This document shows, in pieces, positions 5,255-40,107 of a stretch of 64,000 nucleotides of DNA (position 1 is the first letter of the stretch; every line of letters begins with the position of its first letter). The notes under the pieces were generated by a model, which saw only the letters and a list, made by a program, of their open reading frames with translations, had not been told where the DNA came from and searched no databases. This DNA is from Bacillota bacterium (GTDB taxonomy: Bacteria > Bacillota > SHA-98 > Ch115). The position numbers and the translations under genes are program-made. The stretch covers positions 248,001-312,000 of the forward strand of contig JABLXA010000004.1 in assembly GCA_013178415.1 (NCBI GenBank), read 5' to 3'.

Positions 5255-6385
5255 TCAGTATCCGCGGCCATCAGTATTTACATAGGCTTCGAGCAATATG
5301 TCCCCGCGAAATCGTCTTACCCTGGAGATACTCAATGTAGCACACCCGCCTATCGTACGAGCCCCCGTGCCTTCGACCCAGGTTATGGCATCCTTCCCGC
5401 CGATGATTTTGGGAGCTATGAAGACCAGCACTTTATCTACCAGCCCCTCCCCGAGGAGGGAGGCGTTGAGGCTCCCGCCCCCTTCAACGAGGACCGAGGT
5501 TATCCCCTGTCTCCCCAGTTCAATTAAGACCTCCTTGATGTCCACGCGCCCTTCCTTCGGATCTGTTACTATGACCTTTGCTCCCAGATCTTTCAGGCTT
5601 TCAAGCTTCTCCGAAGGGGCGAACGAGGTCGTAGCGATGATGGTGTCGCCAGGATTTTCCACAAGTAGATTGGCATCAAGGGGGATTCTGGCGTGGGTAT
5701 CCACAATAACCCTCACTGGATTCCGGGGCGCCCGCATCTGCCCCGGCTGGAGTCTCACGGTGAGCCGAGGGTTGTCGGCCAGGACGGTCCCGATGCCCAC
5801 CATTATGGCGTCGTGATGCGCCCTAAGAATATGGGCGTAGCGTCGGGCCTTCTCCCCCGTAATCCAGCGAGAATCTCCGGTGTAAGTGGCGATCTTGCCG
5901 TCGATGCTCATGGCGGCTTTGATGGTGACGAAAGGGAGTCGGGTTCTCACGTATTTGATGAATACCTCGTTTAGCTTCCTCGCGTCCTCCTCCAGGACGC
6001 CGAGGGTAACTTCGATCCCGGCTTCCCTCAAGCGTTGAAAGCCCTTCCCGCAGACGAGAGGGTTCGGATCCTCCATAGAGCATACTACCCTGGCGATCCC
6101 TGCCTTGATGATAGCGTCCGTACAGGGAGGCGTTCTGCCATAGTGACAGCAGGGTTCAAGCGTAACATAGAGCGTAGCCCCCCTGGCAAGCTCCCCTGCG
6201 CGCCTCAAGGCGAACACCTCCGCGTGTGGTTCTCCGGCCATCGGGTGATAGCCCCGGCCCACGATCTGGTCGTTTCTTACAATCAAAGCCCCCACCATGG
6301 GATTGGGGGACGTTGCGCCTATTCCGCGACGCGCGAGCTTAAGGGCTATTCTCATATAATGCTCGTCTAACTCTCCTGGATTCAT
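5255..6385 (-). CDS. ribD: Bifunctional diaminohydroxyphosphoribosylaminopyrimidine deaminase / 5-amino-6-ribosylamino-uracil reductase
   Basis: RibD catalyses the deaminase and reductase steps of riboflavin synthesis. The N-terminal cytidine-deaminase-like domain carries the zinc motifs HAEVFAL and PCCHYGRTPPC; the C-terminal reductase domain (from about residue 150) has SIDGKIAT, DSRWITG and VEGGGSLN. At 376 residues it is full length. ATG 6385 follows AGGAGG. A perfect 5-bp hairpin, GAGGT-AAAC-ACCTC, overlaps this ribosome-binding site and could limit translation. It is the first gene of the operon, preceded by a terminator and an FMN riboswitch. Confidence 0.97.
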   Translation of the reverse strand: MNPGELDEHYMRIALKLARRGIGATSPNPMVGALIVRNDQIVGRGYHPMAGEPHAEVFALRRAGELARGATLYVTLEPCCHYGRTPPCTDAIIKAGIARVVCSMEDPNPLVCGKGFQRLREAGIEVTLGVLEEDARKLNEVFIKYVRTRLPFVTIKAAMSIDGKIATYTGDSRWITGEKARRYAHILRAHHDAIMVGIGTVLADNPRLTVRLQPGQMRAPRNPVRVIVDTHARIPLDANLLVENPGDTIIATTSFAPSEKLESLKDLGAKVIVTDPKEGRVDIKEVLIELGRQGITSVLVEGGGSLNASLLGEGLVDKVLVFIAPKIIGGKDAITWVEGTGARTIGGCATLSISRVRRFRGDILLEAYVNTDGRGY

Positions 6386-6582: not shown

Positions 6583-6730
6583 AGCTTTTCGCCCTCTTCC
6601 ATCCAGACTTTACTGTCGGCTTTGGCTTCCCACCAAATCAACCGCTTGCGCGGCTCGCGGGCTCGACACATGCGTTATTCATACCGTGTCATACCGCCGA
6701 TCGGGAATTTCACCCTGCCCTGAAGGCTTG
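6583..6730 (-). promoter_or_regulatory. FMN riboswitch (RFN element)
   Basis: The minus strand carries the conserved RFN blocks in order: AGGGCAGGGTGAAATTCCCG, ATCGGCGGTAT, GAGCCCGCGAGC, GATTTGGTG, AAGCCGACAGT and AAAGTCTGGATG. This order and spacing are diagnostic of the FMN aptamer. It controls the downstream rib operon through the terminator at 6508-6541. Confidence 0.95.
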
Positions 6731-6752
6731 ACCCCATATTCAATTCTATTTT

Positions 6753-22755: not shown

Positions 22756-22814
22756 CGAACTATCTCTTAGAAAATCACCTGCGAGGCCCTGGCTTGAGCC
22801 ATTAAGCTGAAAGT

Positions 22815-23012
22815 CCACATCGATGCGGATAGGTGCCCCTTTACCTTTACGGAAAGGGGAGAATAGGGAACCAGGTGCGAAGCCTGGACGGACGCGCCAC
22901 TGTGACCGGGGAGCAACTTCCCTGAATGCCACTCATGTGGGGAAGGCGGGAAGGACGCTTGGATCCGGAAGTCAGGAGACCTGCCTGTCCGTTGTGTTCC
23001 GAAGCCTTCGCG
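22815..23012 (+). promoter_or_regulatory. Cobalamin riboswitch upstream of nrdD
   Basis: The conserved parts are in order: GATAGGTGCCCC, GGGGAGAATAGGGAACCAGG, TGCGAAGCCTGG, GCGCCACTGTGACCGGGG and the B12 box AAGTCAGGAGACCTGCC. No terminator follows. CCTT at 23005-23008 could pair with AAGG of the ribosome-binding site at 23022-23025, so control of translation is likely. Confidence 0.92.
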
Positions 23013-23037: not shown

Positions 23038-25116
23038 ATGTTGAAGAAGATAATCAAACGGGATGGGAGAGTGGTAGATTTTGACCAGGAGAGGATAATC
23101 AACGCCATCTTCAAGGCAGGAAAAGCGGTCGGCTTTGATGACCGGCGGCTCGCCTACGAGCTCTCCAATGAGGTTGTCGATATCCTTCTGCGCGAATTCG
23201 CCGACAAGATACCCGCTGTTGAAGATGTTCAGGATGTCGTCGAGAGAGTATTGATCGAACATGGTCAGGTCAAGACGGCCAAGGCGTACATTCTCTATCG
23301 TAAGCAGCACCAGGAACTACGAGACTTCCATAATCTCCTCGTCAATGCCGAAAAGATGGTCGAAGACTACGTAGGCGGCCGGGACTGGCAAGTAAACGAA
23401 AATAGCAACATGAATTACTCGCTGCAGGGCTTGAATAATCACCTAATTTCCGCTCTCACATCAAGATACTGGCTGGAAAAGGTCTACCCTGAAGAGATAC
23501 GAGAAGCCCATAAAGATGGAAGCATTCATATTCATGACCTGAGCCTTCTTGCGCCATATTGTTGCGGATGGAATCTGGCAGACCTGCTGCTGCAGGGGTT
23601 CGGCGGCGTAGCCCAAAAGATCGAAAGTGCTCCTGCCAGGCATTTTCGCACGGCGCTCGGCCAGGTAGTCAATTTCTTTTATACACTCCAGGGAGAATCT
23701 GCCGGCGCTCAGGCTTTCGCCAATTTCGACACTTACCTTGCGCCTTTTATCGCCTACGATGGCCTGAACTACAAGGAAGTCAAGCAAGCAATCCAAGAGT
23801 TCATCTTCAATCTCAACGTGCCGACCCGTGTCGGGTTTCAAACTCCATTCGTCAATATAACTATGGATGTTGTGGTTCCCGGGATACTGGCTGGTGAGCC
23901 TGTCATAATCGGCGGCAAGACGCAAAGCGCGCAGTATAGGGAATTCCAGCGCGAGATGGACATGCTCAATACGGCCTTTTGTGAAGTGATGATGGATGGA
24001 GACGCTAGAGGAAGGATATTCAGTTTTCCAATCCCGACCTACAATATATCTCCGGAATTCGATTGGGATAGTCCGGTGATCGCAAAGGTCATGGAAATGA
24101 CAGCGAAATATGGAATCCCTTATTTCGCCAATTTCATCAATTCGGACCTGTCACCGGAAGATGTGCGGAGTATGTGCTGTCGCCTCCGCATTGATAATCG
24201 CGAGCTCCGAAGACGCGGCGGCGGGCTGTTCGGGGCGAACCCTCTCACAGGATCCATTGGCGTTGTGACGTTGAATATGCCGCGAATTGGCTATCTCTCT
24301 CGGTCAAAGGATGATTTCCTGAACCGGGTAAAAGAGCTTATGGATCTTGCGAAGCAAAGCCTGCTGATCAAGAGGGAAGTCCTTGAGCGGATGACGGAAA
24401 CGGGTCTCTATCCATATTCGCGCCATTATTTGGATTCCGTGAAGAAACGCTTCGGCAAATACTGGCATAATCATTTTAACACCATCGGCCTGGTTGGGAT
24501 GAATGAAGCGCTCCTCAACTTCATGGGACGAGATATCACCACCCCGGAAGGGCACCAGTTTGCTATAGAAGTTCTAGATTTCATGCGGCAAGTGTTAGTT
24601 GCATACCAGGAAGAAAGCGGGCAGATGTTCAACCTTGAAGCTACCCCAGCCGAAGGCACAGCATACAGGCTGGCCCGGCTGGACCGGCAGGCTTACCCCG
24701 ATATCGTCACCGCGGGCGAAAGCGAGCCATACTATACGAATTCCACCCAGCTTCCAGTCGACTTCACCGACGATATCTTTGAGGCTCTGGACCTGCAGGA
24801 AGAGCTTCAAATAAAGTATACAGGGGGCACGGTGTTTCATGGTTTCATCGGGGAACGAATCGATGACATCGGCGTGATGAAAAAACTCCTCTACAGAGTA
24901 ATGTCCAATTACAGGGTGCCATATTTCACCATAACGCCCACTTTCAGCATCTGCCCTGAACATGGTTATATGGCGGGCGAACATTCAACCTGTCTCACAT
25001 GCGGGCGTGAATCCGAGGTATGGAGCAGGGTGGTGGGATTTTACAGGCCGGTTCAGAACTGGAATAAGGGCAAACAGAGCGAGTTCGCCGATCGGAAGGA
25101 ATATACGATAGGGTAA
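23038..25116 (+). CDS. nrdD: Anaerobic (class III) ribonucleoside-triphosphate reductase
   Basis: NrdD reduces ribonucleotides using a glycyl radical. Residues 1 to about 90 are an ATP-cone (KKIIKRDGRVVDFDQERI...). The catalytic domain includes the GSIHIHDLSLLAPYCCGW and NVPTRVGFQTPFVNI stretches. The C-terminus holds the zinc site (SICPEHGYMAGEHSTCLTCG) and the glycyl-radical region RVVGFYRPVQNWNKGK. The length of 692 residues fits the short class III branch. It is preceded by a B12 riboswitch, so vitamin B12 should shut down this B12-independent enzyme; a class II enzyme is expected elsewhere in the genome. AAGGAG precedes ATG 23038. Confidence 0.95.
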   Translation: MLKKIIKRDGRVVDFDQERIINAIFKAGKAVGFDDRRLAYELSNEVVDILLREFADKIPAVEDVQDVVERVLIEHGQVKTAKAYILYRKQHQELRDFHNLLVNAEKMVEDYVGGRDWQVNENSNMNYSLQGLNNHLISALTSRYWLEKVYPEEIREAHKDGSIHIHDLSLLAPYCCGWNLADLLLQGFGGVAQKIESAPARHFRTALGQVVNFFYTLQGESAGAQAFANFDTYLAPFIAYDGLNYKEVKQAIQEFIFNLNVPTRVGFQTPFVNITMDVVVPGILAGEPVIIGGKTQSAQYREFQREMDMLNTAFCEVMMDGDARGRIFSFPIPTYNISPEFDWDSPVIAKVMEMTAKYGIPYFANFINSDLSPEDVRSMCCRLRIDNRELRRRGGGLFGANPLTGSIGVVTLNMPRIGYLSRSKDDFLNRVKELMDLAKQSLLIKREVLERMTETGLYPYSRHYLDSVKKRFGKYWHNHFNTIGLVGMNEALLNFMGRDITTPEGHQFAIEVLDFMRQVLVAYQEESGQMFNLEATPAEGTAYRLARLDRQAYPDIVTAGESEPYYTNSTQLPVDFTDDIFEALDLQEELQIKYTGGTVFHGFIGERIDDIGVMKKLLYRVMSNYRVPYFTITPTFSICPEHGYMAGEHSTCLTCGRESEVWSRVVGFYRPVQNWNKGKQSEFADRKEYTIG

Positions 25117-26370: not shown

Positions 26371-26406
26371 TAAAGCAGTTCAATGAACCAAGGGGGATTT
26401 CAGAAC

Positions 26407-27939
26407 ATGCGGAAACTAACTGTAGCACTAGTAGCACTGCTGACATGCGCAATAGCCCTTCCAGCAGTTGCAGCACCCAAGGTTGATGTAACTGGATCGC
26501 TTGATACCAGCATCAAATTGGATCCCAATGTGAATGGTGAAAGCAAAGTGTTTGGGGAGAGCGACCTGAGGCTCAATCTTGGAATAGGACTCGGAGCGGG
26601 TGACGCCATCAAGGCCGTCATCGAGTTCGCTCCAATCAAGTGGGCTCCACTTGGAGCGATCACGGACGAGAATAATCAGATGCTCAACAACGATAAGCCG
26701 TTGGGCTCAGATGTTACCGTAAACCCGGGTACTCTCGGCAAACTGACGCCGGCCCAGATCCTCGGCCCTGAGAACGGGCTGACCATCGACAAGGCTTACC
26801 TCGAGACGGCCGGCGCCTACTGGCCAGGTGGCCCGCAGGTTGTCACCAGACTCGGTGACCTTGCCGTAGATTATTCGCCATATGTTGCCGCTAAGAGCGC
26901 GACAGACGGGGTAATTGAAGGCGCTCAGATGACCGGTATGCCCATAGGACCTGTGACCATAAGCGGGTTCTATGGCTGGGCCCCGGATAATCCTGATGAT
27001 CCAGTCAGCAATACCATCGTCGTCCGTGGGGCTTCCGCTGGCGCATCTATCCAGGGAGTCGACCTCTCTGGTAGCATGGTCAAGGCGGGAGAGAATCTCT
27101 CCTATGTGGGCCAGGCAGCCTTCTCACCGATGCAGAATATGACCATAACTGGCACATACGCCGCTGATGAGGCTCATTCCGCAGCCGCCCGCAAGGTGGA
27201 AGGCACCATCACTGGTCTTCCGGTCCTGTCTGGCGTCACCGTGAAGGCTGGATACAGGGACTTCGATTGGGCATTCGATCCGAAGTATCGTGACCGATCG
27301 GAGGATGACGATGGCAATTGGACTAACGTTGTCGACCAGAATAGAGGTCAGCGTGGATTCAACGCCGAGGTCTCCACGGCTCTTCATGGCGTCAACCTGA
27401 CTGGTTCGATCGATCAGCATGAGCAAAGAGAGGATGCGAATGTCATCGGTCAAAGACGCATATTCACAGTCGGAGCTGATACCGAGCTTCGGGGCTTTAA
27501 ACTCTCTGGCGCATATAAGCTTACCACTTCTAACGTGATATGGACCAATGGCGATAATGCCCAGAATTATGGAGGGCTTGAAGAGGGCCAGAAAGCCGAA
27601 GCTCCTGAAGTCACCACTATCGAGCTCGGCGCCGAAAGGACATTCCCGGTCGGCATGCTGGCTATCGACGCTAAATACGGACTCACCCTCAACAGCAACG
27701 AGCCTGCCATCCATGATGTCCAGGCATCTACAGTGTTGCCGGTGCCCGTGCTGAACGCAGTCGAGGTAAGCGGCAAGGCTAGACTCAATGGTGAACAACT
27801 CAGCTACGTGGCTGGCGCAGGCTATGTCGCTCCCAATGGAATAAAGTTCGCTGTCAACTACAGCAATGGCTACGAAGTCGGGGACGACAGCTATGAAGCA
27901 GGTCTGTCGGCGAGTGCTGATCTCAAGGTTGAGTTCTAA
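26407..27939 (+). CDS. Secreted outer-membrane beta-barrel (porin-like) protein
   Basis: The N-terminus MRKLTVALVALLTCAIALPA followed by VAA is a classical signal peptide with signal-peptidase-I site. The mature 485 or so residues have alternating short strands rich in Gly, Tyr, Val and Thr (VTGSLDTSIKL, LRLNLGIGLG, VTVKAGYRDFDW, GFKLSGAYKLTTS) and end in DLKVEF, with the terminal aromatic typical of outer-membrane barrels. No lipobox, cell-wall sorting motif or SLH domain is visible. ATG 26407 was chosen because AGGGGG lies ten bases upstream; ATG 26383 has none. In a spore-forming Bacillota this suggests a two-membrane envelope. The family could not be named more closely. Confidence 0.65.
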   Translation: MRKLTVALVALLTCAIALPAVAAPKVDVTGSLDTSIKLDPNVNGESKVFGESDLRLNLGIGLGAGDAIKAVIEFAPIKWAPLGAITDENNQMLNNDKPLGSDVTVNPGTLGKLTPAQILGPENGLTIDKAYLETAGAYWPGGPQVVTRLGDLAVDYSPYVAAKSATDGVIEGAQMTGMPIGPVTISGFYGWAPDNPDDPVSNTIVVRGASAGASIQGVDLSGSMVKAGENLSYVGQAAFSPMQNMTITGTYAADEAHSAAARKVEGTITGLPVLSGVTVKAGYRDFDWAFDPKYRDRSEDDDGNWTNVVDQNRGQRGFNAEVSTALHGVNLTGSIDQHEQREDANVIGQRRIFTVGADTELRGFKLSGAYKLTTSNVIWTNGDNAQNYGGLEEGQKAEAPEVTTIELGAERTFPVGMLAIDAKYGLTLNSNEPAIHDVQASTVLPVPVLNAVEVSGKARLNGEQLSYVAGAGYVAPNGIKFAVNYSNGYEVGDDSYEAGLSASADLKVEF

Positions 27940-28706: not shown

Positions 28707-29807
28707 ATGGCAAGGGTATATCTTGAGCATGTAGTCAAGGCCTTTGGTAATGTCATTGCAGTCAATGACGCCACCCTGGAGATCAAGGATAAAGAGTTTT
28801 TGGTACTTGTAGGACCTTCGGGTTGTGGCAAATCCACCACTCTCCGAATGGTGGCGGGCCTTGAAGAAGTAACATCAGGTAATATTTATATCGGTGATAC
28901 CTTGGTGAATGATGTTCCGCCGAAAGACCGCGATATCGCAATGGTCTTCCAGAATTACGCCCTCTATCCCCATATGGATGTATACAACAACATGGCATTC
29001 GGATTGAAGCTCAGGAGGTTCCCAAGGGCGGAGATAGACCGCAGGGTCAAAGAAGCGGCAAGGACGCTGGGCATCGAGAACCTTCTGAACCGTAAACCTA
29101 AGGAGCTCTCCGGCGGCCAGCGCCAAAGGGTTGCACTCGGACGAGCCATTGTGCGTGAACCGAAAGTCTTCCTGATGGATGAGCCGTTATCAAACCTCGA
29201 CGCCAAGTTGCGGGTACAAATGAGATCCGAGCTCAGCAAGCTTCACAATCGTCTCCAGACCACCATCATATATGTAACCCACGATCAGACCGAGGCTATG
29301 ACGATGGGTGATAGAATCGTCGTCATGAGAGATGGATTCATACAGCAGGTCGGCGCCCCCATGGAAATCTATGAGCATCCAGATAATGTATTCGTCGCAG
29401 GGTTTATCGGCAGCCCGGCAATGAACTTCATAGACGCTGTAATTGTCAAAGAGGGCGATGATTACTATGTGGATGCCAAGAGTTTCAAGGTCAAGGTTCC
29501 ACCTACCCGGTTTGAGAATATAGGTGCATATGTGGGGAAAGAGGTCATTTTCGGCATTCGTCCCGAGGATATAGACGACAGAGAACTGGTCCCCAATCCC
29601 CCTGAGGACCGGGTCGTAACAGCATCAGTCGACGTTATGGAGCCTATGGGATCTGAAGTATATCTCTATCTGTCAAGCGGGGACAATTCATTTGTCGCCA
29701 GAGTAGATCCCCATACGAGGGCCCGGGATGGCATGACCCATCAGGTTGTTATGAATACCGACAGATGCCATCTCTTTGATCCCAAGACTGAGCGCGCTAT
29801 AAGGTAG
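28707..29807 (+). CDS. Carbohydrate ABC transporter ATP-binding protein (MsmX/UgpC/MalK type)
   Basis: Residues 1 to about 235 are the nucleotide-binding domain with Walker A GPSGCGKST, Q-loop VFQNYALYPHM, signature LSGGQRQR, Walker B VFLMDEP and VTHDQTEAMTM. Residues about 240-366 form the regulatory OB-fold (TOBE) domain characteristic of sugar-importer ATPases (FGIRPEDIDD; VDVMEPMGSEVYLYL). It is a single gene with no permeases next to it. The permease cluster at 38265-40107 has no ATPase, so this protein may energise it and others, as MsmX does in Bacillus subtilis; that pairing is inference. Confidence 0.93.
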   Translation: MARVYLEHVVKAFGNVIAVNDATLEIKDKEFLVLVGPSGCGKSTTLRMVAGLEEVTSGNIYIGDTLVNDVPPKDRDIAMVFQNYALYPHMDVYNNMAFGLKLRRFPRAEIDRRVKEAARTLGIENLLNRKPKELSGGQRQRVALGRAIVREPKVFLMDEPLSNLDAKLRVQMRSELSKLHNRLQTTIIYVTHDQTEAMTMGDRIVVMRDGFIQQVGAPMEIYEHPDNVFVAGFIGSPAMNFIDAVIVKEGDDYYVDAKSFKVKVPPTRFENIGAYVGKEVIFGIRPEDIDDRELVPNPPEDRVVTASVDVMEPMGSEVYLYLSSGDNSFVARVDPHTRARDGMTHQVVMNTDRCHLFDPKTERAIR

Positions 29808-29995: not shown

Positions 29996-31090
29996 ATGCA
30001 GCATGATTTTAAGGCCAAAACTGGCGAACTGCCGATTGACCTGGACAACCCCGATTCCATTGCTTCTATGGATGCAGGAGGCATGTTGTCAGCCATTTCC
30101 GGATTACCTTCGCAATGCAGGGAGGCCTGGGAGATTGCTTCTACGGTAACGATTCCCGCTGAATATAGGAATCGCGAGAATGTAATCAGCATAGGAATGG
30201 GCGGCTCTGCGATAGGCGGGGATCTAGTTCGAACCCTTACTGCATCTGAAATGAATCAGCCTATGACAGTTATTCGTGGCTATGATATTCCAGGTTTCGT
30301 GAGTGACAAGACCCTGGCCATATTGTCAAGCTATTCAGGAAATACTGAGGAAACTCTCACAGCCTATGAGTCATGTAATAAGAGGGGAGCCAAGATCGTC
30401 GCAATCACGTCCGGGGGAAGGCTTGCTGAATTGGCCCGCAAGGACGGGGTTCCTCTTGTATTGGTGCCATCAGGTCTTCAGCCTCGCGCCGCTCTCGGTT
30501 ATCTCTTCCTTACTGCCCTGTCGATTGTGCAAAAAGCGGGGTTGGTGACGGATAAATCAGAAGACGTGGAGGAGGCATGTGATGTTCTCGAACAATTGGT
30601 AGGCGTTTTGGGGCCATCCTCACCCGCTGAGGTCAACCAGAGCAAGCGCCTAGCCATGCATATGTTCGGGCGCATCCCGGTGATCTATGCGGCCGTAGGA
30701 TTTCCTGCTGCCGCGGCGCTGAGATGGAAATGCCAAATCAACGAAAACTCCAAGACCCACGCATTCTGGAACGAGATTCCGGAGATGAATCACAATGAAA
30801 CTGTCGGCTGGAGCGCCCCCGATGAGATTCAAAAGGCCTTGTGTGTGATTTTCTTGAGAGACAAGGGCGAGCACCCTCGTATAGCCAAAAGGTTCGAAAT
30901 CACGAAGTCCATAGTTAAGGGCGCGTCTTCCATCAATGATGTCCACAGTCTTGGGCGTTCAGAGCTGGCGAGGCTCCTTTCTTTGATCTATGTCGGAGAC
31001 TTCGCTAGTTTCTATCTGGCTCTTCTGTATGGAGTTGATCCGACTCCAGTCAAAGTGATAGAATTTCTAAAATCCGAACTTGCCAAATGA
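29996..31090 (+). CDS. Bifunctional phosphoglucose/phosphomannose isomerase
   Basis: This 364-residue protein belongs to the PGI/PMI family of the SIS fold, better known from archaea and some anaerobes. Visible are ISIGMGGSAIGGDLVR, ILSSYSGNTEETL (phosphosugar-binding SIS loops), QINENSKTHAFWNEIPEMNHNE carrying the catalytic glutamate and histidine, and the C-terminal LLYGVDPTPVKVIEFLKSEL. It interconverts glucose-6-, fructose-6- and mannose-6-phosphates. No good ribosome-binding site precedes ATG 29996, so the start could be later (for instance near Met25). The ROK sugar kinase follows after 260 bases. Confidence 0.9.
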   Translation: MQHDFKAKTGELPIDLDNPDSIASMDAGGMLSAISGLPSQCREAWEIASTVTIPAEYRNRENVISIGMGGSAIGGDLVRTLTASEMNQPMTVIRGYDIPGFVSDKTLAILSSYSGNTEETLTAYESCNKRGAKIVAITSGGRLAELARKDGVPLVLVPSGLQPRAALGYLFLTALSIVQKAGLVTDKSEDVEEACDVLEQLVGVLGPSSPAEVNQSKRLAMHMFGRIPVIYAAVGFPAAAALRWKCQINENSKTHAFWNEIPEMNHNETVGWSAPDEIQKALCVIFLRDKGEHPRIAKRFEITKSIVKGASSINDVHSLGRSELARLLSLIYVGDFASFYLALLYGVDPTPVKVIEFLKSELAK

Positions 31091-31161: not shown

Positions 31162-31350
31162 CCGCCTCAGCATCTGAGCCGATGGACAAGGCGACGAGGA
31201 TGCTACATTATTGGGAGGCATCCTGCGCCAGATTTTGTGAATCAAAGCCATCTTTGCTTCTTTCTAAAGGATGGTCGTAGATGAATCGTTATCGGGGCAC
31301 ATCAACTGAAAGAGCCATGGTATATGGATTATGGTGGGAGGGGAGACCTT

Positions 31351-32325
31351 TTGTCCAGAGATCTATTTGCAGTAGGGGTTGATCTTGGTGGAACAAAGAT
31401 AGCCACCGGAGTGACCGATCTTGAGGGCCGTGTGATCCAAAGGATCATAGCCCCCACTGAGCCGGAATACGGCGCGGAACATGTAATCGGCAATATATGT
31501 CGGAGCGTAGAAGATGCTATAAGCCGGGCCGGGGTGCCTCGCGACAAGATCGTGGGAATTGGAGTTGGGAGCCCTGGACCTCTTGACCCAAGATCCGGCA
31601 TCGTGATCTTTGCCCCTAACCTCAAGTGGAAGAATGTCCCCTTGAAGGCGATGATAGAGGCGTCGACAAAGCTACCTGTCTGGGTGGGAAACGACGCCAA
31701 TCTCGCAGCATTGGGGGAGATGCGATTCGGGGCAGGCAAGGGCTCCAGTAATATGATCTACATAACTGTGAGCACTGGTATCGGGGGCGGTTTGATCATC
31801 AATGGCGAGGTATTTGAGGGGACAAGCTTCATAGCCGGCGAGGTCGGCCATATAGTTATCGTGCCAGATGGGCCCAGGTGCGGTTGCGGCAATTATGGCT
31901 GCCTGGAGGCCGTTGCTTCAGGGACCGCTATTGCGCGAGTCGCCAGAGAACATGCCCAAGAGGGAATGGCAGAGAAGATACTCTCCCTTGCGGGCGGAGA
32001 CCCCGACAAGATTTCAGCCAAGATTGTGGCCCAGGCTGCTGACCAGGGTGACGAAGAGGCTATTTCTATATTGAATGAGGCATTTACCTATTTGGGGCTG
32101 GGCATTGTGACCTTGCTCAATCTGCTAAATCCTGAGGTGATCGTCATAGGCGGCGGTGTCTCGCAAATCGGCGCCAGGCTTTTCGGCAAGGTGCAAGAGG
32201 TGGTATCAAAGCGAGCTATAAAGGCCGCCGTGGATGTAGTGCGCATAGTGCCCTCGGCACTTGGGCAGGATGTTGGACTGGTAGGCGCCGCAGCTCTGGC
32301 CATCGATTCAGCGCTAAATCGCTAA
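31351..32325 (+). CDS. ROK family sugar kinase (probable glucokinase)
   Basis: The ATP-binding motif VGVDLGGTKI opens the protein. IGVGSPGPLD, VGNDANLAALGE (catalytic aspartate), TGIGGGLIINGEV, GEVGHIVI and the zinc-binding CGCGNYGCLE follow, all typical of ROK kinases; the lack of an N-terminal DNA-binding domain argues for a kinase, most likely glucokinase, rather than a repressor. TTG 31351 was chosen since GGGAGGGGAG lies directly upstream, whereas ATG 31324 has no such site. It follows the PGI/PMI gene; a strong terminator ends the unit. Confidence 0.9.
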   Translation: MSRDLFAVGVDLGGTKIATGVTDLEGRVIQRIIAPTEPEYGAEHVIGNICRSVEDAISRAGVPRDKIVGIGVGSPGPLDPRSGIVIFAPNLKWKNVPLKAMIEASTKLPVWVGNDANLAALGEMRFGAGKGSSNMIYITVSTGIGGGLIINGEVFEGTSFIAGEVGHIVIVPDGPRCGCGNYGCLEAVASGTAIARVAREHAQEGMAEKILSLAGGDPDKISAKIVAQAADQGDEEAISILNEAFTYLGLGIVTLLNLLNPEVIVIGGGVSQIGARLFGKVQEVVSKRAIKAAVDVVRIVPSALGQDVGLVGAAALAIDSALNR

Positions 32326-32431: not shown

Positions 32432-33364
32432 GTGGTCCTATCCAGCCGTATTAGGGCTTTTGCGATTTTCTGTGTTTTCTGCTTGATCATTTCACACCTA
32501 CTGATAGTATCAGGCAGCAAGGTGAGCCAAACGGCGAATCCTGAAAGAGGTCCGGAAGTGATCTTTGAGATGGAGGACCCGGCCGGCGACGACTATGGAC
32601 CGGGCACATATACATATCCTACACATAAAGCTTTCGCGCATCCTGGGCTTTTTGACCTTCTCAAATTCGTCGTCTCTTATGACATTCAGAATATCTATTT
32701 TGATTTCACTTTCAAAGAGATCGTCAATCCCTGGAACGCTCCTGAGGGTTTTAGCCACCAATTAGTAGACCTCTACATTGACAATATCCCGGGAGAGGGG
32801 CTTGCGCTACCTCTTCGTCCTGGTCCAAATGTGGCATTCTCCCGCCGGAACGCCTGGGATTATAGAATCAAGATCATCGGCTGGGGAGGAACCCGTCTCT
32901 ATTCTTCGAAGGATGAGAAAGACAGCGACGGGATAAGAAGCGGACTGAGGGTTCACCTGCTGCCGGATAAAAAGACCATACGAGCGGTCGTGCCAATAAC
33001 TCTGCTCGGGAAGCCCGATCGGATGTGGAGATACTATGTTCTGGTGGGCTCCCAGGATGCCTTTGGAAACGATGATTATCGCCCTGTTATGGAACAGGCT
33101 GATAGCTGGTTTTTCGGCGGCGGGCGAGATTCTGATGCAGACCCAAATGTGATAGATCTCCTGGCCGTTGCAGAGGGTCCGCGTTCTCAAGGAGAGATGC
33201 TGAGGTCTTACAATCCCAAGACTGGCGCTTTCGCGACCATTTACCCTGTAGGGCCCGGAGCCATGGGCGGTTTTCCTCCGCTATTATTGCCAGCGATACT
33301 GGCGGCGCTTTTGATAGTGGGAGCCCTCCTGATCGTCAGGATTCGTCGGGCGCGACAGCAATGA
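32432..33364 (+). CDS. Membrane-anchored glucodextranase C-terminal-domain-like protein
   Basis: The N-terminal hydrophobic stretch (about residues 8-28) is a signal or anchor. The body has the features of the glucodextranase C-terminal (DOMON-like, sugar-binding) domain: FEMEDPAGDDYGPGTYTYPT, LFDLLKFVVSYD, HQLVDLYID and WDYRIKIIGW. A second hydrophobic segment (about residues 279-302) with a positively charged end (RIRRARQQ) would fix it in the membrane, so the domain faces outward. No glycosidase domain is attached. GTG 32432 follows GGGAGG. Role inferred: binding or presenting alpha-glucans. Confidence 0.75.
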   Translation: MVLSSRIRAFAIFCVFCLIISHLLIVSGSKVSQTANPERGPEVIFEMEDPAGDDYGPGTYTYPTHKAFAHPGLFDLLKFVVSYDIQNIYFDFTFKEIVNPWNAPEGFSHQLVDLYIDNIPGEGLALPLRPGPNVAFSRRNAWDYRIKIIGWGGTRLYSSKDEKDSDGIRSGLRVHLLPDKKTIRAVVPITLLGKPDRMWRYYVLVGSQDAFGNDDYRPVMEQADSWFFGGGRDSDADPNVIDLLAVAEGPRSQGEMLRSYNPKTGAFATIYPVGPGAMGGFPPLLLPAILAALLIVGALLIVRIRRARQQ

Positions 33365-33445: not shown

Positions 33446-34438
33446 CTAGACAATGCTCACCCTGAGATCATGTGACCCGTCTGGTCGCGCGAACTCATAG
33501 AAATAGTAGAATTTGTCCTCATGCGGCACGACCTCTATGTAGCGGAGGGTGCCGGGGCTGTTGGGGGAAGTGAGTATGGGACCACCCGGCGTCAGCCTTT
33601 CGAAATGGACGAGGTCAAAGCTTATGGCAAGGCCGGTCTTCTCCTCATAATTATCTTTTACATCGGGTATTCCATCATAGAACGCAGTGAATACCGGTGG
33701 CGCGTAGACGATTGACGATATGCGCGTTGCGTATTTGTCCCATCCAGAGTCTCCAGGGGACAGCACATCCCCAATCCATGAGAAATTCACGCCATCCAGG
33801 CTTACCGCGAGGCCGGTGCATGACTTGGTTATACCTGTATTGTAAACATCAAATGTCGCATGCATCGCTTTCCTGGTCTCATGGTCGGCGTTTGGCGCTG
33901 GCGGAGCATAGCTCAAAAACATGTAGTACTTCCCGCCAACAATCAGAATATATGGATCTTTGACTCCTTCCACTCCTATATCTGCCGCGCAGAGGATCTT
34001 GGTGCGTTTGTGGATATCGAATTTTGAGGGGCTTTCGGCTTCCAAGAGATCAATTCGCCATCTGCCGTCTGCGGGATCTACGTAGCTCATGTAAAGCCGG
34101 TAAATTCCTCCCGGAGTCTTGACCAACGCAGCCCGTTCCATAGATTCCGTATTAAGGTCTTGTTTGGTGGCTTTCCAGATCTGATTAAGCGTAATTCCAT
34201 CTTCACTCTCGTAAATGCGGCACTCATAACCCCGTCCCTCACCACGGGGTTTTCTCAGTCTGCAGTAGATATAGAATCTCCGCGTCTCATCATCGTAGAT
34301 GGCGCTCGGAGCGCCGATCCAGTAGCCATTTCCCTGGCCGGGAGGATCTGCGATTGGCATGCCTGTTTTAGGATTGAAGAGAGGTACAGTGCCGAGCCAG
34401 TGTTTGCCATTGCAGCGCAATTCATAAATTCGGTTCAT
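33446..34438 (-). CDS. Five-bladed beta-propeller glycosidase-like protein
   Basis: The 330-residue protein shows the repeated blades of GH43/GH32/GH130-like propellers: YWIGAPSAIYDDETRRFYIYC, ECRIYESEDGI, GVEGVKDPYILIVGGKYYMF and LAVSLDGVNFSWIGD. The candidate acid residues sit in APSAIYDD and VKDPYI, as in such propellers. There is no signal peptide, so it would act in the cytoplasm. I cannot assign a family or substrate. GGAGGG precedes ATG 34438. It is transcribed away from the sugar cluster that starts at 34740. Confidence 0.65.
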   Translation of the reverse strand: MNRIYELRCNGKHWLGTVPLFNPKTGMPIADPPGQGNGYWIGAPSAIYDDETRRFYIYCRLRKPRGEGRGYECRIYESEDGITLNQIWKATKQDLNTESMERAALVKTPGGIYRLYMSYVDPADGRWRIDLLEAESPSKFDIHKRTKILCAADIGVEGVKDPYILIVGGKYYMFLSYAPPAPNADHETRKAMHATFDVYNTGITKSCTGLAVSLDGVNFSWIGDVLSPGDSGWDKYATRISSIVYAPPVFTAFYDGIPDVKDNYEEKTGLAISFDLVHFERLTPGGPILTSPNSPGTLRYIEVVPHEDKFYYFYEFARPDGSHDLRVSIV

Positions 34439-36846: not shown

Positions 36847-38154
36847 ATGAAGAATTCAAGAATTTTCAATGGGTTTACGAGAATACGTGTATTGGCCATC
36901 ACCTGTCTACTTGCGACAACGATCTTGGGCATTATAGGTTTTTATACAGCTGAAGCCGCGCCAAAGGCCCAGATAACCTGGCTATGTCCGGGTGACTTCA
37001 CTGTGCAAAAGGCCCACCAGAAGATTGTGGATGAATTTAATAAGCGCTTCCCGGATATTAGGGTGAACTACCAGCATGTCACTGTAGGGGCAGATTATAT
37101 GCCAAAGCTACAGACTATGATAGCCGGTGGTTCTGCTCCAGATATATTTCAGATAGATCCTTGGTACTTTGCAGGTCTGGTAAGAAAAGGAGGTCTCTCA
37201 AACCTTCAACCATATGCGGACAAGACAAAAGGATTCGATGAGGGAGATTTCTTCCCCAATTCTCTCGCCGGATTCAAATATAAAGGTGATATCTATGGGA
37301 TTCCCAGAGAGGGTGGTCCAAGTCTCCTTGCATTCAACAAAGATCTCTTTAAGGCAGCCGGCTTGAAACCTCCTACAGATAGCTGGACCTGGACTGATCT
37401 TCTGAATGCCGCGAGAAAGCTCACAAAACGTGATGCCTCCGGGCGCGTTACCCAATATGGGTTCCAGTGGGGACATTGGGCTGAGTGGGTATGGTCAAAT
37501 GGGGGCGACATTCTTAGCCATGATAATAAAGAATGCGTTCTCGATCAGGCGCCTGCGGTAGAAGCTCTCCAGTGGCTCGCCGACCTGATCCATAAGGAAA
37601 AGGTGGCGCCTCCGGTTGAGGCTCTAACTGAACAGAATCCCATTGAGATGTTTATGATGGGCAGGCTCGCTACCCTTGTTACTGTGCGCTCCTTCTGGTA
37701 CCGGTTAAAGGATGTGAGGTTTGAGTGGGGTATGGAGCTTTTGCCTAAGGGTAAGGCTGGCAGGGTCCCCGTGCTCAACGCCAACGCCCTCTGTGTTTCC
37801 TCTTCATCTAAACATCCCGAGGCAGCCTGGACTTTCATCAACTGGGCCCTTGGCGTAGATGGGTGGAATATAAGGTTCGAGGCCGCTCAACAAGCAGGAG
37901 TTCCTCAGCGATTATCTGTGACGGCTTCTGAAGGATATTTAAGTAATGGCAATCCGTGGCTCTCGCGTGTAACTAATCAAAAGATAGTAAAGGGCGTCTA
38001 TGAAGCCAGATTCTTGCCTCTGATCCCGGCATGGTCCGAGATAGAGCGGACGATTACACCTGAACTTGATCTTCTCTGGAGCGGGAAGGCGACAGCGAAA
38101 GAGGCCGTCTCCCGGATAAAGCCTGCCGTCGACGCTATCTTGAAGAAACAATAG
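36847..38154 (+). CDS. Sugar ABC transporter substrate-binding protein with signal-peptidase-I signal
   Basis: An extracytoplasmic solute-binding protein of the carbohydrate type (435 residues): AQITWLCPGDF, FNKRFPDIRVNYQHV, IAGGSAPDIFQIDPWYFA and a late SSSKHPEAAWTFINWAL. The first 38 residues are a signal sequence ending in TAEAAPKA, with an AxA-type cleavage site and no convincing lipobox (the only nearby Cys, in LAITC, has a poor context). Monoderm Bacillota usually lipidate such proteins, so a soluble periplasmic form would fit two membranes. GGAGGG precedes the ATG. The two permease genes follow after a hairpin. Confidence 0.93.
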   Translation: MKNSRIFNGFTRIRVLAITCLLATTILGIIGFYTAEAAPKAQITWLCPGDFTVQKAHQKIVDEFNKRFPDIRVNYQHVTVGADYMPKLQTMIAGGSAPDIFQIDPWYFAGLVRKGGLSNLQPYADKTKGFDEGDFFPNSLAGFKYKGDIYGIPREGGPSLLAFNKDLFKAAGLKPPTDSWTWTDLLNAARKLTKRDASGRVTQYGFQWGHWAEWVWSNGGDILSHDNKECVLDQAPAVEALQWLADLIHKEKVAPPVEALTEQNPIEMFMMGRLATLVTVRSFWYRLKDVRFEWGMELLPKGKAGRVPVLNANALCVSSSSKHPEAAWTFINWALGVDGWNIRFEAAQQAGVPQRLSVTASEGYLSNGNPWLSRVTNQKIVKGVYEARFLPLIPAWSEIERTITPELDLLWSGKATAKEAVSRIKPAVDAILKKQ

Positions 38155-38264: not shown

Positions 38265-39191
38265 ATGATGAATTCGCGTCGGGCTACTGGGCGTCGTAGC
38301 AGGCTGATGTTTCGCGAGCATATTGATGGCTGGATCTTTGCGCTTCCATGGCTCCTCGGTTTTGCCATATGGACCCTGGGACCCATGATTGCTTCTCTCA
38401 TATTTGCCTTTACCGATTACGACATGGTAACCCCACCCAGGTGGATAGGCATGGGCAATCTAAGGGAGCTTATTAGGGACCCGCTGATAGTCCACTCTCT
38501 TAAAGTTACAACTCTCTATGCCGTGGCAAGCGTGCCCCTTAATATCTGCCTTGGCCTTATCTTGGCTATGCTACTCAATAGCAAAATCCGTGGGCTCCGG
38601 TGGTACAGGACAGGCTATTATCTTCCTTCCGTACTTTCAGGGGTGGCCGCCGCGCTTCTCTGGAGATGGATTTTTTCTCCTGATTTTGGACTATTCAACC
38701 TGGTATTATCATGGTTTGGTATAAAGGGACCCGCCTGGCTTGCCGACGAAAGATGGGCACTGCCGGCTTTGGTCATCATGAGCCTGTGGGGCGTCGGGGG
38801 CGGCATGATAATCTACCTCGCTGGTCTCCAGGGCATCCCCACAGAGCTATATGAGGCCGCCGAGGTGGATGGAGCGGGACTCTTGGCGAAGACCTTCCAT
38901 GTGACTATCCCCATGATGAGCCCAGTGATATTCTACCAACTTGTAATGGGTGTCATCGGATCATTACAGGTTTTTACTCAGGGTTATATCATAACTGCGG
39001 GTGGCCCGCATAATGCAACCCTTTTCTATATGTTGCATCTCTATCGTAATGCCTTTGAGTATTTCAGGATGGGGTATGCCTCGGTAATGGCCTGGGTACT
39101 TTTCTTCTATATTCTGATCTTGACGCTATTCGTATTCAAGTCATCTGCAGCCTGGGTATATTATGAGGGGCAGTTAAGAGGGGGGAGATAA
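38265..39191 (+). CDS. Carbohydrate ABC transporter permease (UgpA/MalF type)
   Basis: An integral membrane protein of 308 residues with six predicted helices and the cytoplasmic EAA loop TELYEAAEVDGAGLLAKTFH followed by ITIPMMSP-like VTIPMMSP, where the ATPase docks. The N-terminal DGWIFALPWLLGFAIWTLGP is typical for the UgpA branch. It pairs with the following permease and the preceding binding protein. It may start at either of two adjacent ATG codons. No ATPase gene is in the cluster. Confidence 0.92.
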   Translation: MMNSRRATGRRSRLMFREHIDGWIFALPWLLGFAIWTLGPMIASLIFAFTDYDMVTPPRWIGMGNLRELIRDPLIVHSLKVTTLYAVASVPLNICLGLILAMLLNSKIRGLRWYRTGYYLPSVLSGVAAALLWRWIFSPDFGLFNLVLSWFGIKGPAWLADERWALPALVIMSLWGVGGGMIIYLAGLQGIPTELYEAAEVDGAGLLAKTFHVTIPMMSPVIFYQLVMGVIGSLQVFTQGYIITAGGPHNATLFYMLHLYRNAFEYFRMGYASVMAWVLFFYILILTLFVFKSSAAWVYYEGQLRGGR

Positions 39192-39195
39192 CACT

Positions 39196-40107
39196 ATGTC
39201 AAGTGACGCCATGTCAATAAGTAATCCAACGCAATCGGCGAGGACGCAAAAACGCCTTAGAAACCCGCTCCATTCCAAACGTATGCGAGGAATCATGGGT
39301 GCAATTATTGTTCATCTCGTGCTGTTAACAGGGTTGGTATTCATTCTTATGCCTCTTGCATGGTCGATCTCTACCTCGTTGAAGGAGCCCGGAGCCGTCT
39401 TTACCTATCCACCAGAATGGATTCCGAGACCGGTGGTGTGGCGGAATTATATAGACGCATGGACAGTGCTTCCCTTCTTTCGATACCTCTGGAATACGAC
39501 AATGATCACTACTTTTTCAATAGTGGGGAGATTGCTTGCTTGTTCTCTCGCGGCTTTTGCGTTTTCAAGGCTGCGCTGGCCGGGTAGAGATGTCCTATTT
39601 TTTATGATGCTGTCAACCATGATGCTCCCCAGCCAGGTCACACTGATTCCAACATTCATCCTCTTTCGCAAGCTTGGCTGGGTTAATACCTTTTTGCCTC
39701 TGATAATTCCTAAATTCTTCGCAGAGCCTTTCTTCACGTTTCTTATGCGCCAGTTTTTCATGACGATACCGATCCAAATGGATGAGGCGGCCAGAATAGA
39801 TGGTTGCACGAATTTTTCTATTTTTTCGAAGATCATCATGCCCCTCTCTAAACCCGTGTTTATTGCGGTAGCCATTTTCGTGTTCAACGCCAACTGGAAT
39901 GACTTCTTTGCTCCTCTGATTTATCTTCATGATTCCGACAAGTTTACCCTTGCCCTTGGGTTGAGAGCATTCCAGGGGCAATTCGGTACTGAATGGAATC
40001 TGATGATGGCGGCATCTAACCTGGTTCTATTGCCGGTGGTTTTGTTGTTCTTCTTTGCTCAGAAATACTTTATGCAAGGAGTTGTAATTACGGGCCTTAA
40101 GGGTTAA
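39196..40107 (+). CDS. Carbohydrate ABC transporter permease (UgpE/MalG type)
   Basis: The second membrane subunit, 303 residues with six predicted helices. The EAA loop is IQMDEAARIDGCTNFSIFSK followed by IIMPLSKP. SISTSLKEPGAVFTYPPEW and the closing FFAQKYFMQGVVITGLKG are characteristic of the UgpE branch. It starts four bases after the first permease. The N-terminal 30 residues are polar and poorly conserved. The ATP-binding partner is probably the protein encoded at 28707. Confidence 0.92.
   Translation: MSSDAMSISNPTQSARTQKRLRNPLHSKRMRGIMGAIIVHLVLLTGLVFILMPLAWSISTSLKEPGAVFTYPPEWIPRPVVWRNYIDAWTVLPFFRYLWNTTMITTFSIVGRLLACSLAAFAFSRLRWPGRDVLFFMMLSTMMLPSQVTLIPTFILFRKLGWVNTFLPLIIPKFFAEPFFTFLMRQFFMTIPIQMDEAARIDGCTNFSIFSKIIMPLSKPVFIAVAIFVFNANWNDFFAPLIYLHDSDKFTLALGLRAFQGQFGTEWNLMMAASNLVLLPVVLLFFFAQKYFMQGVVITGLKG

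Follow-up and report, generated by a model that had tools for sequence, protein, structure and literature searches.

The host group of this spore former consists mostly of single-membrane bacteria, and a porin-like gene in its genome raises the questions of what membrane the protein would sit in and what it would let into the cell. The gene lies at 26407–27939 on the plus strand of the window (the whole stretch of 64,000 nucleotides that was analyzed, from a contig of a Bacillota bacterium). It codes for 510 amino acids: a signal peptide (about residues 1–23), followed by a predicted 24-strand outer-membrane barrel, with neither SLH domain nor stalk. The evidence is computational throughout, and consists of the open reading frame and its signal, the barrel model, the outer-membrane gene set, the synteny, a single OB_MalK ATPase, and sugar importers devoid of an ATPase of their own. 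The reading that we consider likely is that the protein is a tether-free sugar diffusion porin of the outer membrane, belonging to an unnamed family, paired with a shared import motor and LamB-like in its role.

The Porin and Its Homologs

The protein starts with MRKLTVALVALLTCAIALPAVAA and ends with KVEF; an alternative in-frame ATG at 26383 would lengthen it to 518 residues. The mature protein has no cysteine. Its hydrophobic residues alternate more regularly than in its own shuffled sequences (z = 2.96, matched or exceeded by 6 of 1000 shuffles) and more than in all 44 other open reading frames of the window with at least 220 amino acids that were scored, the runner-up reaching 2.44. With the identical script, the BamA barrel of this genome scores 2.7, the barrel of its OmpM-like protein (see following) scores 4.1, and the coil of the latter −0.2. 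Among the 45 homologs examined, z is above 2 in 35, and the last residue is Phe in all. The alignment of homologs shows that the signal peptide and the final Phe are conserved across the family. The first-pass annotation had pointed to the signal peptide, the alternating strands, and the terminal Phe, all of which are borne out; of the Gly/Tyr richness that it also noted, glycine is indeed abundant (11.9%), but tyrosine is not (3.5%).

In Pfam (E up to 1), the porin matches Porin_4 (PF13609) alone, at 22.2 bits and thus below the cut-off of 27, with no match to the LamB family or to the usher domain. Porin_4 is matched by 6 of the 45 homologs (E up to 0.01) and SlpA_C by 7 (best E 5.8e-07), whereas the SLH domain is absent from the window porin and from all 45 homologs scanned. 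The NCBIfam scan of the porin gave no family, and one homolog (L087) has a partial DESULF_POR1 match with a score far below the cut-off. A search of PDB sequences with a profile of 14 rows found no relative, the best hit (E = 1.1) being an unrelated receptor.

Structure modeling, on which the first-pass annotation had made its reading depend, gave a barrel of 24 strands (mean pLDDT 84.2, pTM 0.77). This model was built on the alignment of 45 sequences, a depth that counts as a weakness, and supersedes an earlier one made from 14 rows (pLDDT 75.3, pTM 0.62). The longest loops of the model (residues 80–125, 152–170, 287–314, 376–400, and 487–498) each follow an odd-numbered strand, so that by our reading of the topology both termini would face the periplasm. 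Among known folds, the 24-strand ushers FimD and PapC match the full length best (Z 14.1–17.9, rmsd 4.0–6.5 Å, 341–380 residues). Residues 22–411 align with porins of the OprD/AlgE/LamB type, LamB itself covering residues 25–409 (Z 14.4–14.7, rmsd about 8 Å). OmpM structures (8bys/8bym) also match by fold, and the Deinococcus SlpA barrel does so partially. Taken together, the signal, the alternation, the C-terminal aromatic residue, the barrel model, and the presence of BamA in the genome identify the porin as an outer-membrane β-barrel protein.

The Predicted Outer Membrane of a Spore Former

Judged by its gene content, the cell has an outer membrane. The first-pass annotation had argued for a diderm spore former, and the genome does contain BamA, LpxABCD, and Lpt genes along with spore genes. 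One contig (C2) carries tamB, bamA, Skp/OmpH, and lpxD, the bamA product being an Omp85 of the BamA type that has three POTRA stretches, and the spore gene ypeB is found about 8.7 kb from bamA. Another contig (C3) carries an LPS cluster, inside which lies an OmpM-like protein of 1019 amino acids with an SLH-coil-barrel architecture, along with LptF/G, an ABC ATPase, LptA/C-type proteins, LpxB, LpxI, LpxA, a FabZ-like enzyme, and LpxC. Hence bamA, whose absence would have refuted that annotation, and lpxC are present, but lptD, the third gene that it named as a check, has a syntenic candidate only: a 737-residue protein in the Lpt cluster (L069:5191–7404, minus strand, contig C3) that scores 12.7–14.6 bits against LptD for a cut-off of 22.4 and is perhaps the divergent LptD of this lineage. 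SpoIVA is encoded on the window's own contig. Because spore genes occur both on this contig and near bamA, a mixed bin is unlikely. SpoIVA was found in 39 of 41 genomes and LpxC in 21 of them.

Diderm spore formers have been described before. Limnochorda pilosa is a Gram-negative spore-former by the title of a work cited in PMC11448272, and an excerpt of PMC11456536 describes another two Limnochordia as having two membranes. Limnochorda pilosa, Geochorda, and Carboxydochorda share with the present genome an outer membrane in deep Bacillota, with spores in L. pilosa; here the membrane is predicted from gene content. What is new is the function proposed for the porin locus.

The occurrence of the porin tracks the outer membrane. 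Homologs occur in 23 of 61 genomes, this one included, and, in a larger draw from one phylum group, the family is present in 55 of 299 genomes and Omp85 in 77 of 299, all 55 falling within the 77 (the two counts are taken as made on the same draw, as shared genome labels suggest). The 22 genomes with Omp85 and without the porin include the class-mate G007 and every one of the seven members listed for family f31. The genome under study has one copy, and identity between homologs drops to 26–34%.

The sugar-binding proteins agree with this picture. A loose lipobox pattern is found in 3 of the 24 in this genome, versus 29 of 30 in five genomes lacking Omp85, 22 of these 30 coming from a single genome (G037). 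The count of 24 derives from 25 loci, one of which (L162, with no start) was dropped, while two fragments without signal (L171 and L175) were kept. The first-pass annotation had taken the nonlipidated binding protein at 36847 as an argument for a diderm cell, and this observation generalizes. The scarcity of lipoboxes fits soluble periplasmic binding proteins that would be retained by the outer membrane.

Conserved Linkage with Sugar Genes

Downstream of the porin, and on the same strand, the window contains a CUT1-type ATPase similar to MalK, UgpC, and MsmX (28707–29807), a bifunctional phosphoglucose/phosphomannose isomerase (29996–31090; NF006426 over its cut-off), a ROK-family glucokinase (31324–32325; TIGR00744 over its cut-off), the last two being part of the linkage described below, and a protein with a Glucodextran_C domain (32432–33364; PF09985, 226 bits) and hydrophobic N- and C-terminal segments. 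The last is conserved in the cluster, accompanying the porin in 20 of 61 loci. Further along, also on the plus strand, are the sugar-binding protein devoid of lipobox (36847–38154), predicted to be soluble and periplasmic, and two ABC sugar permeases (38265–39191 and 39196–40107) that form with it an operon without ATPase. Near this operon, the minus-strand frame at 33446–34438 weakly resembles mannooligosaccharide phosphorylases of family GH130 (15.9 bits, under the cut-off). The gap between porin and ATPase is 767 bp, so that a transcript common to both is no more than a possibility.

Among 61 porin loci collected, 4 end at a contig edge and were left out, leaving 57 testable loci (G226 has two porin fragments, of which the one on C21 alone entered the count; for G013, likewise, just the fragment on C192 did). 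An ATPase was regarded as linked if it had at least 60% identity with the window ATPase and lay within 10 kb on the same strand. By this definition, 45 of the 57 loci have a linked ATPase, which is downstream of the porin in 44; another 9 have the isomerase and/or the kinase without the ATPase, and 3 have neither. Linkage to sugar genes is thus found in 54 of 57 loci, and it persists down to a porin identity of about 26–30%. We estimate chance linkage of porin and ATPase at a few per cent at most, since a genome of about 2–4 Mb has no more than six such ATPases. In several class-mates, a LacI regulator, a sugar-binding protein, and two permeases are found between the porin and the ATPase. Five loci (L121, L123, L125, L126, and L129) have a GH4-type gene upstream of the porin, the GH4 domain being confirmed for L123 and L129 only. 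In some lineages porin and ATPase are separated by another protein that looks secreted (L087:11605–13107 and L127:11178–12524), with no Pfam family over the cut-off.

A Probable Single ATPase for Many Importers

The window ATPase is the only protein of the genome with an OB_MalK match, versus 26 places with an SBP_bac_8 match. Twenty-two loci in which a permease pair adjoins a binding protein were examined, and none has a close ATPase. The stretches around them contain four weak ABC ATPase matches (28–30% identity), which could serve some of these importers and to that extent speak against one motor for all. An excerpt of PMC7658222 ties the residues D77, R104, E110, and K154 of MsmX to multitask ATPases. 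The window ATPase has all four counterparts (D76, R103, E109, and K153), as do 39 of the 45 porin-linked ATPases. It probably powers nearly all sugar importers of the cell. The resemblance to MsmX and MsmK extends to the CUT1 type and to the existence of importers lacking their own ATPase. However, according to the same excerpt, these multitask ATPases are orphans or lie beside importers in Gram-positive bacteria, whereas the window ATPase adjoins an outer-membrane porin.

The relatives are less uniform. In 39 porin-bearing genomes, exactly one OB_MalK protein was found in 18, two to six in 20, and none in 1. Where there is one, it lies beside the porin in 16 of the 18 cases. Since 20 of the 39 have two or more, the single motor is not universal, and one universal ATPase as a general rule is ruled out. 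OB_MalK matches over the cut-off occur in 8 of 15 Omp85 genomes without the porin versus 38 of 39 with it, counts that cover 54 of the available genomes and are uncorrected for phylogeny.

Proposed Function of the Porin

Given the outer-membrane gene set, the large predicted pore, and the adjoining, probably shared ATPase, the porin is most likely the sugar gate of the cell. It would admit sugars, probably mono- and oligosaccharides, to the periplasm, where soluble nonlipidated binding proteins would capture them. They would then cross the inner membrane through about 22 CUT1-type permease pairs, most or all of which would draw on the one MsmX-like ATPase encoded just downstream of the porin, and the isomerase and the ROK glucokinase would feed the sugar into glycolysis. 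The locus would thus assemble the common parts of uptake (gate, motor, and entry enzymes), with the substrate-specific importers dispersed across the genome. The outer membrane would be tethered by the separate SLH-coil-barrel protein, which is OmpM-like. Pore function, sugar preference, and sharing of the ATPase are what we infer here, and the points against a sugar porin include these: synteny reveals association, not substrate, and the loci include the 9 in which only the isomerase or kinase accompanies the porin and the 3 in which neither does.

The main competing account, which we find unlikely, holds that this is a nonspecific general diffusion porin whose proximity to sugar genes would reflect no more than the importance of sugars as the chief nutrient, or high expression of the locus. 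The weak Porin_4 similarity, the SlpA_C matches of some homologs, the size of the modeled barrel, and its single copy in the genome would all suit such a protein. Yet a general porin does not readily account for linkage to sugar genes in nearly all testable loci despite the low identity between the porins, nor for the complete sugar ABC operon with LacI regulator directly downstream in several class-mates, nor for the GH4 genes upstream in some lineages.

Two other accounts start from barrels that the porin resembles. It could be a structural or tethering protein derived from OmpM, nutrients passing mainly through the OmpM barrel; when its profile is compared with that of the OmpM-like barrel of this genome, the match has a probability of 84% across 222 columns, and Veillonella OmpM1 is described in an excerpt of PMC10628300 as a general porin. 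Against this, none of the 45 members has an SLH domain, a separate OmpM-like gene is present in the LPS cluster, and BLAST of one sequence with the other reveals no real similarity past the signal peptide. Sequence likeness is confined to profiles, the idea of a trimmed OmpM is weakened, and a structural or tethering protein is, in our view, highly improbable. We give almost no credence to a kinship with pilus ushers, under which the barrel would serve secretion or assembly. The Z scores of FimD and PapC are the highest among full-length matches, but identity with them is 11–14%, and the common strand number suffices to explain the match. No usher domain was found in Pfam at E up to 1, and those neighbors that were scanned or that homology identified are sugar genes and include neither chaperone nor pilin. 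Strand number being the sole shared feature, the usher reading was dropped.

Comparison with Known Systems

For the sugar porin preferred here, the closest known arrangement is that of LamB with MalEFGK in Escherichia coli, where a porin is also encoded with the ATPase of an ABC sugar importer. LamB, which forms a Pfam family of its own, has 18 strands. The window porin differs from it by the absence of a LamB sequence match and by more strands, and the window ATPase looks common to many importers. OmpM of Veillonella parvula is likewise an outer-membrane porin of diderm Bacillota and matches by fold; in contrast with it, the window porin has no SLH domain or stalk, has 24 strands in the model versus 16, and sits in a sugar-uptake locus, outside the LPS and outer-membrane cluster. 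The same lack of SLH domain and stalk separates it from Deinococcus SlpA, a 30-strand protein according to an excerpt of PMC10628300, in spite of the SlpA_C matches among its homologs.

As excerpted, that 2023 study of Veillonella concludes that OmpM combines outer-membrane tethering with nutrient entry in diderm Firmicutes, considers the same dual role probable in other diderm Terrabacteria, and bases on it an account of outer-membrane loss. The preferred reading, a tether-free sugar porin paired with a shared motor, would qualify this view across diderm Firmicutes, and the homologs suggest that many diderm Bacillota have a separate, tether-free porin. Literature searches listed no paper describing, in diderm Bacillota, either a porin associated with a shared sugar ATPase or a tether-free porin of this kind. 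A broader proposal, on which we are evenly divided, is that in many families of diderm Bacillota nutrients would enter mainly through the tether-free porin family rather than through OmpM, the porin having long been kept beside a universal sugar-import ATPase; that most of these lineages would assign tethering and feeding to different genes; and that loss of the outer membrane would shed both porin and tether while keeping the motor. If so, the motor kept after that loss would be of the same kind as in one-membrane Bacillota. If a separate sugar porin were the rule outside the Veillonella group, the account of outer-membrane loss, as excerpted from PMC10628300, would need revision. The conserved pairing of an outer-membrane gate with the shared motor also suggests directly what a so far unnamed family of proteins may do.

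Other Observations

One genome (G054) has three tandem short proteins (336–354 amino acids; L230:8219–12382) with the same type of signal and a final Phe, unlinked to sugar genes. Elsewhere in the window are two riboswitches. A cobalamin riboswitch (22814–23002, plus strand, 120 bits) lies directly upstream of a gene (23038–25116) that by reading resembles anaerobic ribonucleotide reductase, and an FMN riboswitch (6587–6731, minus strand, 106 bits) lies upstream of the minus-strand gene at 5255–6385.
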